Origin: Bacillota bacterium
GTDB taxonomy: Bacteria > Bacillota > Clostridia > Oscillospirales > Ruminococcaceae
Assembly (NCBI GenBank): GCA_029572815.1
Contig: JAKPUQ010000004.1
Span: 62,001 to 126,000 of the forward strand
Length of the DNA: 64,000 bases
Reading direction: 5' to 3'
Shown: one piece after another, positions 5,605-11,412 of the stretch
Layout: every line of letters begins with the position of its first letter
Numbering within the stretch: the stretch's first letter is position 1
Notes under the pieces: generated by a model
Databases searched by the model: none
What the model was told of the DNA's origin: nothing
The model's input: the letters and a program-made list of their open reading frames with translations, nothing else
Program-made: the position numbers and the translations under genes

Positions 5605-6783
5605 ATGAAGGAATTAGTACTTGTAAAATACGGCGAGATGGCTCTGAAGGGACTTAACAAAAAGACCTTCGAGGATATGCTCATCAAGAATATAAAGCGC
5701 AGACTGAAGCCTCTGGGACATTTCCAGATGACCAGTGCTCAGTCTACAACATACATAAATCCCCTCGACGAGGACATCGACCTTGACGAGGTAGTGGACA
5801 GAGTGGGCAAGATATTCGGTATCGCCACACTGTGCCGCGCCTGCGTATGTGAGAAGGACTTCGAGGACATATGTGCAAAGAGCTATGAGTATCTTGGTAC
5901 GGTGCTCAGCTGCGCAAAGACATTCAAGGTCAACGCAAAGCGCTCAGATAAGGCTTTCCCCATGAAGTCTCCCGAGATATGCGCGGAGCTGGGCGGAAAG
6001 CTCCTGGACAGGTTCCCGAATCTGTCTGTGGACGTTAAGAACCCCGAGGTCACTGTTACTGTTGAGATACGCGACGAGAACGCCTTTGTTCACGCCGAGA
6101 ACATCAAGGGAGCAGGCGGACTTCCCGTGGGAAGCAGCGGCAAGGCTCTTCTCCTTCTCTCGGGCGGTATCGACAGCCCTGTTGCAGGCTACATGATGGC
6201 AAAGCGCGGTGTCCACATCGCTGCTATCCACTATGTGAGCCCTCCTTACACCTCCGACCGCGCACAGCTCAAGGTGGAGCAGCTCTGTCAGAAGCTTACT
6301 GACTACTGCGGCGGGATTGCCTTCTACTGTGTGCCCTTTACAGAGCTCCAGGAGGCTATCAAGGACCACTGTCCCGAGGAGTTCTTCACTATCATAATGA
6401 GAAGGCTCATGATGGAGATAGCACAGCGCATCGCTGCAAAGGACAACTGCCTCGCCCTTATAACAGGCGAGAGCGTGGGACAGGTGGCAAGCCAGACCAT
6501 GGCTGCCATCGCCTGCACAGACGCGGTTTGCAGGATACCTGTTTTCCGTCCCTGCGTTGGTATGGACAAGACCGAGATAATCGACATTGCGCGTAAGATA
6601 GATACATTCGATACATCTGTCCTTCCCTATGAGGACTGCTGTACCGTTTTCACTCCCCGTCACCCGAAGGTGCGTCCTGTGCTCAGCGATGTTGAAAAGG
6701 CACAGAACAGCTTCGATTTTGAGCCTCTGATACAGAAGGCAGTTGAAGGTACAGAGATGAAGACCTTCAATTATGGCGAATAA
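5605..6783 (+). CDS. thiI: tRNA 4-thiouridine synthetase ThiI
   Basis: The 392-residue protein has the N-terminal ferredoxin-like and THUMP region (about residues 1-165) followed by a PP-loop ATPase with SGGIDS at about residues 185-190. It adenylates U8 of tRNA and inserts sulfur delivered by a cysteine desulfurase. There is no C-terminal rhodanese domain, the usual state in Firmicutes, where the persulfide comes directly from a partner desulfurase; that enzyme is encoded two genes upstream. AGGAG precedes the ATG. Confidence 0.96.
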   Translation: MKELVLVKYGEMALKGLNKKTFEDMLIKNIKRRLKPLGHFQMTSAQSTTYINPLDEDIDLDEVVDRVGKIFGIATLCRACVCEKDFEDICAKSYEYLGTVLSCAKTFKVNAKRSDKAFPMKSPEICAELGGKLLDRFPNLSVDVKNPEVTVTVEIRDENAFVHAENIKGAGGLPVGSSGKALLLLSGGIDSPVAGYMMAKRGVHIAAIHYVSPPYTSDRAQLKVEQLCQKLTDYCGGIAFYCVPFTELQEAIKDHCPEEFFTIIMRRLMMEIAQRIAAKDNCLALITGESVGQVASQTMAAIACTDAVCRIPVFRPCVGMDKTEIIDIARKIDTFDTSVLPYEDCCTVFTPRHPKVRPVLSDVEKAQNSFDFEPLIQKAVEGTEMKTFNYGE

Positions 6784-6853: not shown

Positions 6854-7390
6854 GTGGTAAGCAGTAAATTTTCTGAATGTAATGCCGAAAAACTTGACAA
6901 ATCGGTCAGTAATGTTGTAAAATTATTAGAACGGAAAAGTCTGACCATTGCTACGGCGGAAAGCTGTACCGGCGGACTTCTTTCAGAGCTTATAACATCA
7001 GTATCGGGCGCGTCTGCGGTCTTTGAGCTGGGGATATGCACTTATTCCGAGCGCATAAAGACCAAGTTCCTCGGTGTGCCTGCCGAAACTATCAGTAAGT
7101 ACGGCGTGGTCAGTGAGGAGACGGCTCTGGGCATGGTCAGGGGACTGAAGGAATGCTCAGGAGCAGACGTCTGCGTTTCGGTAACGGGTATCGCAGGTCC
7201 ATCGGGCGGAACTGCCGAGACTCCCGTCGGAACGGTCTATATCGGTTTCGATATCTGCGGCAGGCAGTTCGTGTGTCTGCCCGAGCTTTGGAAGCTCAGC
7301 GACATGAGCAGGGATAACATCAGAAGATGCGCCGCTGCTTTTGCGTTCGATACGATAGAAAAAATACTGATGGAGGCGAGGACAGACTGA
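6854..7390 (+). CDS. pncC: CinA C-terminal domain protein (nicotinamide-nucleotide amidase)
   Basis: The 178-residue product is a stand-alone CinA C-terminal domain: TIATAESCTGGLL near residues 31-43 and the VTGIAGPSGGTAE motif near residues 111-123. Proteins of this family deamidate nicotinamide mononucleotide to nicotinate mononucleotide in NAD recycling. The N-terminal molybdopterin-like domain of full-length CinA is missing. Translation starts at GTG 6854. The TGA stop overlaps the ATG of the sortase gene by one base, indicating coupling. A competence role is not implied. Confidence 0.92.
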   Translation: MVSSKFSECNAEKLDKSVSNVVKLLERKSLTIATAESCTGGLLSELITSVSGASAVFELGICTYSERIKTKFLGVPAETISKYGVVSEETALGMVRGLKECSGADVCVSVTGIAGPSGGTAETPVGTVYIGFDICGRQFVCLPELWKLSDMSRDNIRRCAAAFAFDTIEKILMEARTD

Positions 7391-9093
7391 TGAGCGAAAA
7401 AATGACCGACGGAATGACTGAGGCTCAGCGCAGAGCTGAGAAGATAAAAGCTATCAGAAGGTCTATCCGCGGTGAAGCGGAAGTCGCTCCGACGACATAT
7501 GAAAACAAGGCAGAAGCTGAACACAGCAATGTCAGTGTAGGACGCTTAAAGCGTACCGATACAGGACACAGTTCAACGGCTGCTGATATACTTGACGAGC
7601 TGGATGAGGCAATCGCCTATGAAAAGGCGGAGGCCGCTCGCATCGCAGCCCGTGAGGCTGAGGCTGCTGCCGCTGCTGCAGAGCAGGCAGGCCCCGACAT
7701 CTCGGATATAATCCCGGCGCTGGAGCCTAACGCACAAGATAAGCTCCATGAGATAGCTGAGGAGATAACCGAGGATTTTTCGGAGGTCCGCACTGACAGC
7801 TCCGGCGAGGTCATGGACTTCACGGAGAACGATGAAGCAGACAGTGAATACAGCCAGCCTGTTCAGGAGGATACCTATTATAATGAGCCGCAGGCTCAGG
7901 AGACAGCTGCCGATATTTTACGGGCTGACGCAGCTGAGGACACAGTGGTATTCACTCCCGTGGGACATACTCACCGGGAAGCACCGCCCCCTCCCGTTAT
8001 GGAGAGAAGAGCGGCTCCCGAAATGAGTGCGCCTGCCGAGGATACGGCAGTGCAGAAGCCACACAAGAAAAAGAAGAAGAAAAAGAAGACCTTCGCACAG
8101 AAACTGAGAGGACTTCTCCCCGAAAAGGGAGACAGCGTTCTCGAATGTGTGAGAAAAATAGTATTTCTCGGTTCTGTCATAGCGATATTCGTCTGCGGTT
8201 ATCTCGTCGGCGACTATTACTACGAGCTTTGGGCGAGTAAGAACAAGACCGAGAATATCATGGAAATATACGACATCTACGACGGCAGGGAGGCTACTAC
8301 CGTTGCTGTTGAGGAGGAAGGCAAGACCAGGATAAGGTTCGAGGGTATGCTGGACGGAGTGCGCAAGCTCTGGGACCAGAATCACGATATCGTTGGAGTT
8401 ATCAATATCCCCGATACACCTGTCAACAATCCTGTGATGCAGGCCGATGACAATGACAAATACATGAAAAGAAAGTTCGACCTCAGTGAGAACAGGGCGG
8501 GCGAGATATTCCTCGATTACAGAAACCACTTCGACGAGGTGGGCGAGGACGGTTATCTCAAGTGCCCCAACTCAGGCAATCTGGTCATCTACGGACATAA
8601 TATGCTTGACGAGCAGATGTTCGGAAGTCTTAAATGGTACCAGAGACATGAGGATTACTACGGCAAACACCCTATAATCTATCTCAGTTCAAATTATCAG
8701 AAATACACTTATAAGATATTTGCCTACTTCATTCTGGACGCCACAGACGAAACTGATACAAAGTTCGACTGCTGGAACGAGCTTGAGTTCTCTGATGAGA
8801 ATGAGTTCTATGGCTTTGTCAACGAGGCTAAGAGGAGATCCCTTCGACTTAACGACGTTGATGTGAAGTACGGCGATCCGCTCATAACTCTTTCTACCTG
8901 CAACACCACACTTCCCGATGAGGAAGCAGGTCGTCTCATCATCATGGCGAGACTGGTCAGGGACGGCGAAGATCCTATGGCGGGCACACAGAACAGCAAG
9001 CCTAATCCCAATATCAAGTGGCCCACAAGTTACTATCAGGCTCATCCCAATGAGCATTACGATCCCGACGCGGAATTCGTTCCCTACGGCTGA
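7390..9093 (+). CDS. Class B sortase with long acidic cytoplasmic N-terminus
   Basis: Starting at ATG 7390 (overlapping the cinA stop) the protein has 567 residues. Residues 1-215 are soluble and acidic, ending in a poly-lysine tract (about 217-225) before a single TM helix at about 253-275. The extracellular sortase B domain follows, with catalytic His in YGHN (near residue 402), Cys in LSTC (near 504) and Arg near 520. Class B sortases are cysteine transpeptidases that join sorting-signal proteins to the cell wall. The long cytoplasmic part is unusual for a sortase. No sorting-signal substrate is encoded nearby. Confidence 0.9.
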   Translation: MSEKMTDGMTEAQRRAEKIKAIRRSIRGEAEVAPTTYENKAEAEHSNVSVGRLKRTDTGHSSTAADILDELDEAIAYEKAEAARIAAREAEAAAAAAEQAGPDISDIIPALEPNAQDKLHEIAEEITEDFSEVRTDSSGEVMDFTENDEADSEYSQPVQEDTYYNEPQAQETAADILRADAAEDTVVFTPVGHTHREAPPPPVMERRAAPEMSAPAEDTAVQKPHKKKKKKKKTFAQKLRGLLPEKGDSVLECVRKIVFLGSVIAIFVCGYLVGDYYYELWASKNKTENIMEIYDIYDGREATTVAVEEEGKTRIRFEGMLDGVRKLWDQNHDIVGVINIPDTPVNNPVMQADDNDKYMKRKFDLSENRAGEIFLDYRNHFDEVGEDGYLKCPNSGNLVIYGHNMLDEQMFGSLKWYQRHEDYYGKHPIIYLSSNYQKYTYKIFAYFILDATDETDTKFDCWNELEFSDENEFYGFVNEAKRRSLRLNDVDVKYGDPLITLSTCNTTLPDEEAGRLIIMARLVRDGEDPMAGTQNSKPNPNIKWPTSYYQAHPNEHYDPDAEFVPYG

Positions 9094-9113
9094 TGGAGGA
9101 AGATGAATTATCA

Positions 9114-10073
9114 ATGAGCAAAAAAGCAAAAACTATTGCAGCCTGCGCAGTGTGTGCTGCTGCCCTGGGACTTGGCGGATATGCCCTTTTCCTCAACAAG
9201 GAAACGGACACCGTTCCCACAGTCAGCAGCTTCACAGAGACTGCCGAGCTCACAACAGAGCAGGCGGGATCTCTTCCGCTGGGCTGGGCTGAAAAGATAG
9301 ACTATGCACCGTCATCGGACGGAATGACAGAGAGGGCAAAATCCCTCCTCAGAGTCAATAAGGACATAGTCGGCTGGCTGAAGATCGACGGTCTCCAGCT
9401 GGATTACCCCGTAGTAAAGGACCCGGGCGAGATACCTGCCAACGATCCGTTCTACGGTCCCGAGGAATATATCCCCGATGCCTTCTACCTTGACCATGAC
9501 CTTTACAGGGGACACGATCAGGAGGGCACTCTCTATCTGGACTACCGCGATGAGTTCGGAAGCGACGAGAGCCAGCACTCCGAAAACCAGGTCATCTACG
9601 GTCATGCCATGTGGAACGGCAACATGATGGGCTGTCTCAGGCGCTACCGCCAGGACTTCGACTTCTATGACGTAAGTCCCTTTATCCAGTACAGCTCAAA
9701 CTATAAGACCTACGATTACGTTATTTTCGCCTTCCTTATTACCAGCGGAAGCTACAATGCTACCGACTTCCACTACTGGAATATGGAGGAGCTTGATTCA
9801 GAAGAGGACTTCAACTTCTATATCGACAACTGCAAAAGCAGATGGATGCTCGATACGGGAGTGGATGTGAAGTACGGCGACCAGCTGCTGACCCTCTCCA
9901 CCTGCTATGCAGACGAGGACAACTCCCGTTTCTTAGTAGTTGCCAGAAGGCTCAGGGACGGCGAGGTCGCAGGAGACATGACAACTATCCAGCGCACTGA
10001 GGAGTGGAAAAAGGCTCAGGAAGAGAAAAAGAAAGAAGCAGAAGAGCACGATACCCCTCCCAAGAATGACTGA
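9114..10073 (+). CDS. Class B sortase (second copy)
   Basis: This 319-residue protein has an N-terminal signal anchor (about residues 3-23), then a sortase B domain with YGHA (His near residue 163), LSTC (Cys near 264) and a downstream Arg in VVARRL. It is related to the preceding sortase but lacks the long cytoplasmic region. An in-frame ATG at 9093 overlaps the upstream stop (TGATG); I prefer ATG 9114, which gives a normal basic start and lies downstream of GGAGGA (9095-9100). The C-terminus is a charged Lys/Glu tail. Two different class B sortases in tandem suggest separate substrates or sequential action. Confidence 0.88.
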   Translation: MSKKAKTIAACAVCAAALGLGGYALFLNKETDTVPTVSSFTETAELTTEQAGSLPLGWAEKIDYAPSSDGMTERAKSLLRVNKDIVGWLKIDGLQLDYPVVKDPGEIPANDPFYGPEEYIPDAFYLDHDLYRGHDQEGTLYLDYRDEFGSDESQHSENQVIYGHAMWNGNMMGCLRRYRQDFDFYDVSPFIQYSSNYKTYDYVIFAFLITSGSYNATDFHYWNMEELDSEEDFNFYIDNCKSRWMLDTGVDVKYGDQLLTLSTCYADEDNSRFLVVARRLRDGEVAGDMTTIQRTEEWKKAQEEKKKEAEEHDTPPKND

Positions 10074-10116
10074 TCTCATTAGTGAGCTGACCTTATGTTT
10101 TTAAAAGGAGATTGTT

Positions 10117-11412
10117 ATGGAAATGCAGAAAATGCTCAGAACAGCTGCGGCTGCTGTGTCGGGAGCTTTAGTGCTCTCGGCTGCAACAGGCATGGACACT
10201 GCGGACAGTACAACGGCTGAGGAGACCTCCGTCGTTACAACTGCTGCGGAGGAAACCACTGCGGCCCAGGAGACAGAGGCTTCTGCTGCTGCCGAGGCTG
10301 AAACAGCTGAGGAAGAGCAGGAAATGCCTGAGGACTGGGTCAAGGCTGATATCAGCGAATACGACTCAAGTATGTCTCTCATAAGCTATGAGCTTGCAAC
10401 GCCTGAAATGGCAAAGGTAGGCGAGCCTGTGGATCCTTTTGCAGGTCTTTCCGAGGAGGAGCGCAAGGCTCTTGAGGAAGAGATCGCCAAGAAGAAGAGC
10501 GCCCTCAGAAAGGGGACGCCGACACTTTCCAAGAACGCTGCAAAGAGCAGGAGCAAGGAGCCTACTGCCGTAGAGCTCAAGACCTCGGGCGCTTATGTGG
10601 GAGATATCCCCGAGTCTCAGCCCGATCCCAGCATTGCAGCCCAGCCCGGTGAATTCGCCTTTGTTACATACGGCTGGGGACACGGAGTCGGCATGAGCCA
10701 GAACGGCGCTAACTTCTACGCTGCCTACGCAGGCTGGACATATCAGGATATCCTGTTCCACTATTACCCCGGAACTTACCTGATGAATACCGGACTTACC
10801 GACGAGGAGGAGCTTACCATTGCTCATGAGCCTGCGGGCGATACCCTCAAGGTAGTTTCTGAGATAGTCAACCGCGAGGTGGGCGGCAGCTTCTCTTATG
10901 AAGCTATCAAGGCTCAGGCAGTTGCAGTATATACTTATATAAAGTATAACGGCGACGACTCAAAGGACCTGAGAGGCAAGCCCAATCCGCCGCAGGTAGT
11001 CATCGACGCCTGTGAGGAGGTTCTCGGTGAGGCTCTCTATTACGATGACAATTATGCGCTGACCGTATTCTCCGCTTCAAGCGGAGGCTGCTCGGCAAAC
11101 TGCTATGAGGTCTTCTGTGCGGATTATCCCTACCTCAGAAGCGTGCCCAGCGACTACGATGCAGCCTTTGATCCCCACTGGGGAACAGTTACATATATGA
11201 GTGCGGAGACCGTGAAGAAGAAGCTTGAGACAGCTTACAATATCACCCTTTCCGATGATCCGGGCAACTGGATCCAGCCTGTATATTCAGACGAGACAGG
11301 CTATGTTACAGAAGTCCTCATAGACGGACAGACCTATGCAAAGGGCTACCCCTTCTCTATGATGATGGGACTCAAGTCCTCAAAATTCAATCTTACATAT
11401 ACATATGATTGA
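10117..11412 (+). CDS. Secreted SpoIID/LytB-type protein with permuted catalytic domain
   Basis: The 431-residue protein has a signal peptide (about residues 1-26), a Thr/Ala/Glu-rich spacer to about 185, then SpoIID motifs. SpoIID enzymes are lytic transglycosylases acting on denuded peptidoglycan. Usually the EALKAQAVAARTY motif with the catalytic Glu comes first and the GWGHGVGMSQ...YYPGT segment is at the C-terminus. Here GWGHGVGMSQ is at about 186-195 and YYPGT near 217, ahead of the NREVGG/EAIKAQAVAV segment (about 250-270) and the SSGG...YLRSV block (about 320-345). All motifs are present but in circularly permuted order. The gene follows two sortases and precedes mraZ, a cell-envelope setting. 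Confidence 0.85.
   Translation: MEMQKMLRTAAAAVSGALVLSAATGMDTADSTTAEETSVVTTAAEETTAAQETEASAAAEAETAEEEQEMPEDWVKADISEYDSSMSLISYELATPEMAKVGEPVDPFAGLSEEERKALEEEIAKKKSALRKGTPTLSKNAAKSRSKEPTAVELKTSGAYVGDIPESQPDPSIAAQPGEFAFVTYGWGHGVGMSQNGANFYAAYAGWTYQDILFHYYPGTYLMNTGLTDEEELTIAHEPAGDTLKVVSEIVNREVGGSFSYEAIKAQAVAVYTYIKYNGDDSKDLRGKPNPPQVVIDACEEVLGEALYYDDNYALTVFSASSGGCSANCYEVFCADYPYLRSVPSDYDAAFDPHWGTVTYMSAETVKKKLETAYNITLSDDPGNWIQPVYSDETGYVTEVLIDGQTYAKGYPFSMMMGLKSSKFNLTYTYD

Follow-up and report, generated by a model that had tools for sequence, protein, structure and literature searches.

A circularly permuted SpoIID/LytB domain encoded next to sortase genes in the Ruminococcus flavefaciens group

The window analysed here is a stretch of 64,000 nucleotides (contig JAKPUQ010000004.1, positions 62,001 to 126,000) from a rumen bacterium of the Ruminococcus flavefaciens group, for which R. 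flavefaciens ND2009 provides the closest named locus (99% identity). The open reading frame (ORF) 10117-11412 of this window carries a circularly permuted SpoIID/LytB domain, in which the segment that closes the domain in canonical SpoIID stands in front of the catalytic part. The gene and its parts are:

10117..11412, + strand: permuted SpoIID/LytB-domain protein of 431 residues, ATG at 10117, stop codon at 11410-11412
10103..10110, + strand: likely ribosome-binding site AAAAGGAG, six bases 5' of the ATG, as judged from the sequence
10126..10179, + strand: N-terminal hydrophobic helix, residues 4-21, seen in the sequence and as a low-confidence helix in the model; likely an export signal or membrane anchor
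10339..10392, + strand: linear motif KA....Y..S.SLISYE, about residues 75-92, conserved in the permuted clade, of low model confidence
10633..10788, + strand: GWGHGVGMSQ...YYPGT segment (GHG segment), residues 173-224, C-terminal in canonical SpoIID and here first; positions 223-273 of the canonical-only profile described below
10789..10809, + strand: linker, residues 225-231, from the old C-terminus to the old N-terminus, between model strands 221-224 and 232-235
10810..11403, + strand: residues 232-429, which form the N-terminal segment in canonical SpoIID and include the catalytic helix, EAIKAQA, SSGG and the final strand
10876..10878, + strand: codon of Glu254, aligned with the catalytic E101 of Clostridioides difficile SpoIID, where the chain position of 5txu was used as residue number

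An earlier note on this DNA had described a rotated motif order, and the motifs do occur in the order it gave: GWGHGVGMSQ (residues 186-195) and YYPGT (216-220) are followed by EAIKAQAVAV (from 262), SSGG (321-324) and GYPFSMMMGL (410-419). The protein has the catalytic Glu in a GVVxxEM context, the GHGxGMSQ...YYPGT signature and the SpoIID fold; the canonical block order with the GHG segment last is missing, which makes it a permuted variant of the SpoIID/LytB family and not a canonical member. It passes the cut-offs of TIGR02669 (SpoIID/LytB; 111.1 bits against 83.3, summed over two stretches) and of PF08486 (24.6 bits against 23), while in a six-frame genome search with TIGR02669 either stretch on its own stays below the cut-off. 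In comparison to SpoIID of C. difficile (5i1t, 5txu) and Bacillus anthracis (4rwr) its blocks are rotated, its gene is adjacent to sortase genes, and the equivalog model of SpoIID proper, TIGR02870, gives only 114.8 bits against a cut-off of 234.75. A reading as the orthologue of the SpoIID for engulfment was set aside because of this failed cut-off and of a separate canonical SpoIID (L001, 340 residues) in the same genome, which also contains one SpoIIP match and six sortase matches.

The permutation is directly visible in comparisons with canonical sequences. A phmmer search against solved structures matched the three SpoIID entries named above as rotated pieces; for 5i1t the query residues 177-222, 250-288 and 293-424 correspond to chain positions 282-326, 73-111 and 145-276 (whole-sequence E-value 2e-18). 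We scored eleven proteins against a profile of 277 positions made only from 49 canonical-order SpoIID/LytB domains. Residues 173-224 of the window protein match profile positions 223-273 (individual E-value 2e-15), residues 249-282 match 16-49 (2e-5) and residues 296-429 match 94-226 (8e-21). The rotated ends thus join at about profile position 223-226, as is expected for a circular permutation. The SpoIID of the same genome aligns over positions 2-272 in a single piece, and the canonical-order relatives P0242 and L091 give their pieces in ascending order. In the window protein only 13 residues separate the match that ends at profile position 49 from the one that begins at 94, so the stretch of positions 50-93, present in SpoIID and considered for the zinc-site residues of the C. 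difficile protein, is probably absent or nearly so. Chance resemblance of the motifs is ruled out by these E-values together with the conservation reported below.

The AlphaFold model of the domain is confident, and its strands and helices follow one another as in a canonical relative after rotation, with the cut in a hairpin turn. The predicted local distance difference test score (pLDDT) is 96-98 over residues 171-220, which contain the GHG block, and 76-83 over residues 221-240, the region of the linker. Most likely, as the model suggests, the new ends lie in a beta-hairpin turn of the canonical fold and the old ends are bridged by the short linker. With VIA-align, SpoIID entries alone were listed for the permuted model; for the canonical control SleC was listed in addition.

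The search for homologues of the same motif order, which the earlier note had called for, was productive. The window protein and the listed matches of two protein searches (the best 120 of 4018 and the best 120 of 3908) give 241 permuted proteins. In 238 of them a strict pattern, in which 75-76 residues separate the blocks, places the GHG block in front; in the remaining three this order was read by eye. A separate protein search listed 120 canonical-order relatives, all of them in canonical order. The catalytic Glu at the position of E254 is present in all 241 permuted and all 120 canonical-order proteins. In a set of 74 rows the GHG, KAQ and SSGG positions vary little or not at all, and G186, G188, H189, G192, S194, Q195 and Y216 occur in every row. 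Within the N-terminal motif K76, Y82 and Y91 are found in 72 of 74 rows and E92 in 71. The pattern KA....Y..S.SLISYE occurs in 179 of the 241 permuted proteins versus none of the 120 canonical-order relatives, and this stretch may be a docking site. A tandem-duplicate intermediate was not seen, as each motif is single in 238 of 241 permuted and in 120 of 120 canonical proteins passing the patterns, beyond which no wider search was made.

Among 248 genomes of the same family, the 30 loci with the best scores comprise 29 permuted ones, from 10 genus codes, and the canonical L072. A divergent permuted form (L090) in genome G001 of genus g2 raises this to 11 genus codes. Most of the other rows among the matches listed for the family align only over residues of about 240-430, as the canonical order would give, and 11 of the 248 genomes had no match. 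An order-wide sample of 197 genomes gave 14 matches at E <= 1e-30, one of them permuted and from another family (G421, L126). At the same limit 3 of 292 genomes matched class-wide and 1 of 299 phylum-wide, the only permuted one being the window's own genome; this limit misses distant permuted forms, as genome G716 of the phylum sample surfaced only by another route. A plasmid search with the window domain returned two weak matches from Subdoligranulum. The permuted protein of G421 (L126:6305-8623, - strand) is 773 residues long and has a long N-terminal region followed by a likely membrane helix; Pfam names only its SpoIID part.

Upstream of the permuted gene lie four genes of a conserved slot:

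5605..6783, + strand: gene which we take from its sequence to be thiI-type; conserved neighbour
6854..7390, + strand: presumably a CinA-type gene; conserved neighbour, with CinA named by Pfam in a fused ORF of the corresponding slot in L125
7390..9093, + strand: class B sortase 1 (ORF listed from 7327; TIGR03064 154.2 bits against 153.75, scored from 7327)
9093..10073, + strand: sortase 2, class B-like (PF04203 28.4 against 26.6; TIGR03064 108.8, below the cut-off of 153.75)

Both neighbours are above the Pfam sortase cut-off and their linkage is conserved, so that the adjacency to two sortases proposed earlier holds; the class B cut-off is barely passed by the first and failed by the second. 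Stop and start codons overlap between cinA and srtB1 (7388-7392, where the ATG at 7390 overlaps the cinA stop) and between srtB1 and srtB2 (9093), which suggests one operon with translational coupling.

The slot was surveyed with the genes of the window as references. In a first set of 38 loci both sortases are upstream in every case. One of the 38, L040 (JAMPAJ010000001.1), is titled Alistipes and shows an R. flavefaciens-type cluster with 54% identity; it is perhaps a mislabelled metagenome assembly. In loci L073-L092, of which 19 are permuted and L091 is canonical, at least one sortase match is found in 20 of 20 and a thiI match in 17 of 20. Twenty further loci, the 18 best canonical-order rows of the family search plus those of G421 and G384, comprise 19 of canonical order (18 by pattern, L123 by eye) and the permuted L126. 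Here a sortase match is present in 18 of 20, with none in L108, whose contig starts at the gene, or in L111. Of the 19 canonical loci, 10 share the upstream thiI gene of the permuted slot; the rest, mostly with runs of sortases, have none within the stretch fetched. The shared sortase and thiI neighbours indicate that the permuted and the canonical genes correspond in position. In L109, L110 and L113-L118 up to four successive sortase-like ORFs precede the canonical-order SpoIID-domain gene.

Two canonical-order relatives are fusions: L103:124-2250 (+ strand, 709 residues) joins sortase and SpoIID domains in a single ORF, and L125:2692-6600 (+ strand, 1303 residues) joins CinA, sortase and SpoIID domains. 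The conserved linkage together with these fusions is evidence that sortase and SpoIID domain are functionally connected. Canonical proteins of the slot (for example L119-L125 and P0242) share with the window protein the neighbours, the catalytic Glu and the missing profile stretch, and their domains of 245-266 residues compare with 247-249 in the main permuted clade, with flanks chosen by us; they differ in their block order and in lacking the N-terminal motif of the permuted clade. The dcw-type genes downstream were rejected as part of the unit: mraZ and rsmH are found in 36 of the 38 loci of the first set, with L010 and L026 ending at the contig end, and in 0 of 20 of L073-L092, which makes them neighbours by lineage and not members of the unit.

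Rotated domains are also found far from Ruminococcus. In g399, which belongs to another Bacillota family, genome G716 encodes a permuted domain in an ORF of 873 residues with three C-terminal SLH matches (L187:5774-8392, + strand), and three more g399 genomes match the same query. Actinobacterial proteins may have the rotated order frequently; the two cases scored here are the plasmid-encoded proteins of Tsukamurella tyrosinosolvens (WP_068740546.1) and Rhodococcus ruber (WP_017681162.1), which match profile positions 226-274 and then 4-225 or 5-225. The cut point at about profile position 225 is common to the Ruminococcus-lineage, Actinomycetota and g399 proteins. The Actinomycetota proteins differ in being separate in the tree and in a C-terminal match to the LGFP repeat, which exceeds the Pfam cut-off in Rhodococcus only. 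No sortase annotation was found in the 3.7 kb around each of the Tsukamurella and Rhodococcus genes. A match from Nocardia farcinica appears similar. In the Fusobacterium animalis plasmid pSB029A, the protein L200:721-2274 (+ strand) matches positions 213-275 and then 3-131, where the protein ends, with the GHG segment before the catalytic part; its cut is thus a different one, at about 131, while the location of its remaining part has weak support. All records from Tsukamurella, Rhodococcus and Fusobacterium are plainly named 'SpoIID/LytB domain-containing protein'. The rotated order is thus not unique to Ruminococcus, an idea rejected by the Actinomycetota and g399 cases.

For the tree, 99 of 142 extracted domains were used and the permuted ones were reordered for alignment. 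Duplicates or near-duplicates (L095, L096 and L113) were left out, as were 20 of the 30 canonical rows from across the phylum, 10 of the family's 18 canonical SpoIIDs and 10 of the 15 P0242-type rows that had been sampled. The extraction covered domains passing the patterns, which failed for L081, L089, L123, L135, L136, L141, L144, L148 and L151-L156; a fixed length was used to define where the domain ends in L079, L082, L090 and five P rows. The main permuted clade of 39 rows (support 100/100) groups with 34 canonical-order rows (99/94), and canonical SpoIID falls outside this group. Placement is uncertain for the long rows, namely L090, L126 and the g399 branch. The order label changes five times on the tree, at least three of these changes being forced by well-supported branches. 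In the approximately unbiased (AU) test the union of all 46 permuted rows in one clade was rejected (log-likelihood 112 lower, p-AU 8e-68). Not rejected were the unions of the main clade with L126 and L090 (p 0.089), with L126 (0.42) and with L090 (0.36), as well as Actinomycetota with g399 (0.53) and L126 with L090 (0.47). These results support at least two permutation events with a common cut, not five. In the Ruminococcus lineage the permuted form most likely arose from a SpoIID-domain protein of canonical order that occupied the slot behind the cinA and sortase genes; for this group, descent from a canonical parent is the more economical account, as canonical order is the general one.

Taken as a whole, the domain is a true circular permutant of SpoIID/LytB, as had been proposed, by its sequence pieces, its predicted fold, its relatives of like order and its canonical counterparts in the slot. 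With a probability of roughly 0.7 we consider the protein to be an exported, membrane-tethered lytic transglycosylase of the SpoIID/LytB type that probably trims glycan at sortase attachment sites. The closed permuted domain would keep its active site with Glu254, from which the transglycosylase activity is suggested. According to PMC6221140, E101 of C. difficile SpoIID is required for in vitro activity and for sporulation, and a zinc site is reported there for only the C. difficile protein of the two solved SpoIIDs. The membrane tether would enter through the GHG strand and no longer beside the catalytic helix, and the C-terminus would be freed. Together with the neighbouring class B sortases the enzyme may open or trim glycan strands where surface proteins attach.

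Several points weigh against this proposal. C. difficile SpoIID is, according to PMC6221140 and PMC6934232, active only together with SpoIIP, and needs its prior action by the account in PMC6221140; the SpoIIP of the window genome may serve sporulation only. The canonical-order relatives are sortase-linked as well, so the permutation is not needed for that linkage. The control model of P0242 is of low overall confidence (mean pLDDT 61), and the fold comparison was made with sequential aligners, whose three-dimensional superposition does not cover the relocated GHG segment. As to the history, the tree does not settle the direction: two permuted rows, L126 and L090, diverge just beneath the group's canonical-order rows, and a single clade of the 34 canonical rows is not rejected (p 0.25, a test chosen after seeing the tree). 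The group may thus have been permuted early and have gone back to canonical order afterwards.

A further objection is that the domain could be a non-catalytic modifier of the LytB type, which binds glycan and stimulates an amidase. According to a review (PMC6934232), LytB stimulates LytC, and inactive SpoIID of B. subtilis stimulated SpoIIP, to which the review adds a reservation; no assay of the permuted clade was found. We regard such a role as unlikely though worth keeping in view, because the catalytic Glu is kept throughout the permuted and canonical-order proteins and the GHG, KAQ and SSGG positions hardly vary. The short linker between YYPGT and the old first strand, which has the lowest confidence in the domain, might instead let the GHG segment complete the fold of a second molecule and form an intertwined dimer; such a swap seems quite improbable to us, as a single chain is modelled with confidence to either side of this linker.

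The common cut near position 225 could also be taken as the mark of one ancient permutation from which every permuted SpoIID domain descends, also in Actinomycetota and in the SLH-bearing Bacillota genus, followed by returns to canonical order or horizontal transfer. The AU test rejects this single origin for the permuted rows of the tree and the cut in Fusobacterium differs, so we give it very little credence. An assembly error or a broken gene as the source of the rotated order has a negligible chance, being refuted by the like order and spacing in so many separate assemblies. We tentatively suggest, at less than even odds, that the SpoIID fold tends to break at the hairpin preceding the GHG strand, which was cut independently in at least two lineages (elsewhere in Fusobacterium) and each time moving the side of the tether; in the Ruminococcus lineage this would have happened inside a sortase cluster and with a new conserved motif, perhaps the docking site mentioned above. 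If so, the locus would offer a natural experiment, with the states before and after the change, on the control of a wall hydrolase by the geometry of its tether.

The earlier note had suspected a new variant, and this is upheld with qualifications. A published account of a permuted SpoIID was not found in the literature searched, which most subscription papers lay beyond, and papers on circular permutation with lytic transglycosylases or peptidoglycan hydrolases included none on SpoIID by title; the order itself also occurs in Actinomycetota and in a further genus of Bacillota. The domain family is known, and as far as can be seen it is the rotated order with a canonical counterpart in the same slot that is new. 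To our knowledge a naturally permuted catalytic domain is rarely met together with an unpermuted relative that still occupies the corresponding gene slot. As both forms occur in related genera, one can compare directly what the rearrangement does to the fold, to the distance from the membrane that the active site can reach and to the partnership with sortases. The order is easily hidden, since PF08486 covers only part of SpoIID and TIGR02669 sums separate stretches, so that variants carry an ordinary database name. The scaffoldin ScaE of R. flavefaciens is bound to peptidoglycan by a sortase mechanism via an LPXTG motif, according to PMC2930009, and a wall hydrolase in a sortase cluster may be a candidate for this anchoring pathway.

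Another ORF of the same genome, L004:589-1980 (- strand), contains a GLSQWGT motif and apparent peptidoglycan-binding repeats. It is perhaps SleC-like, because SleC was a fold match of the canonical control.
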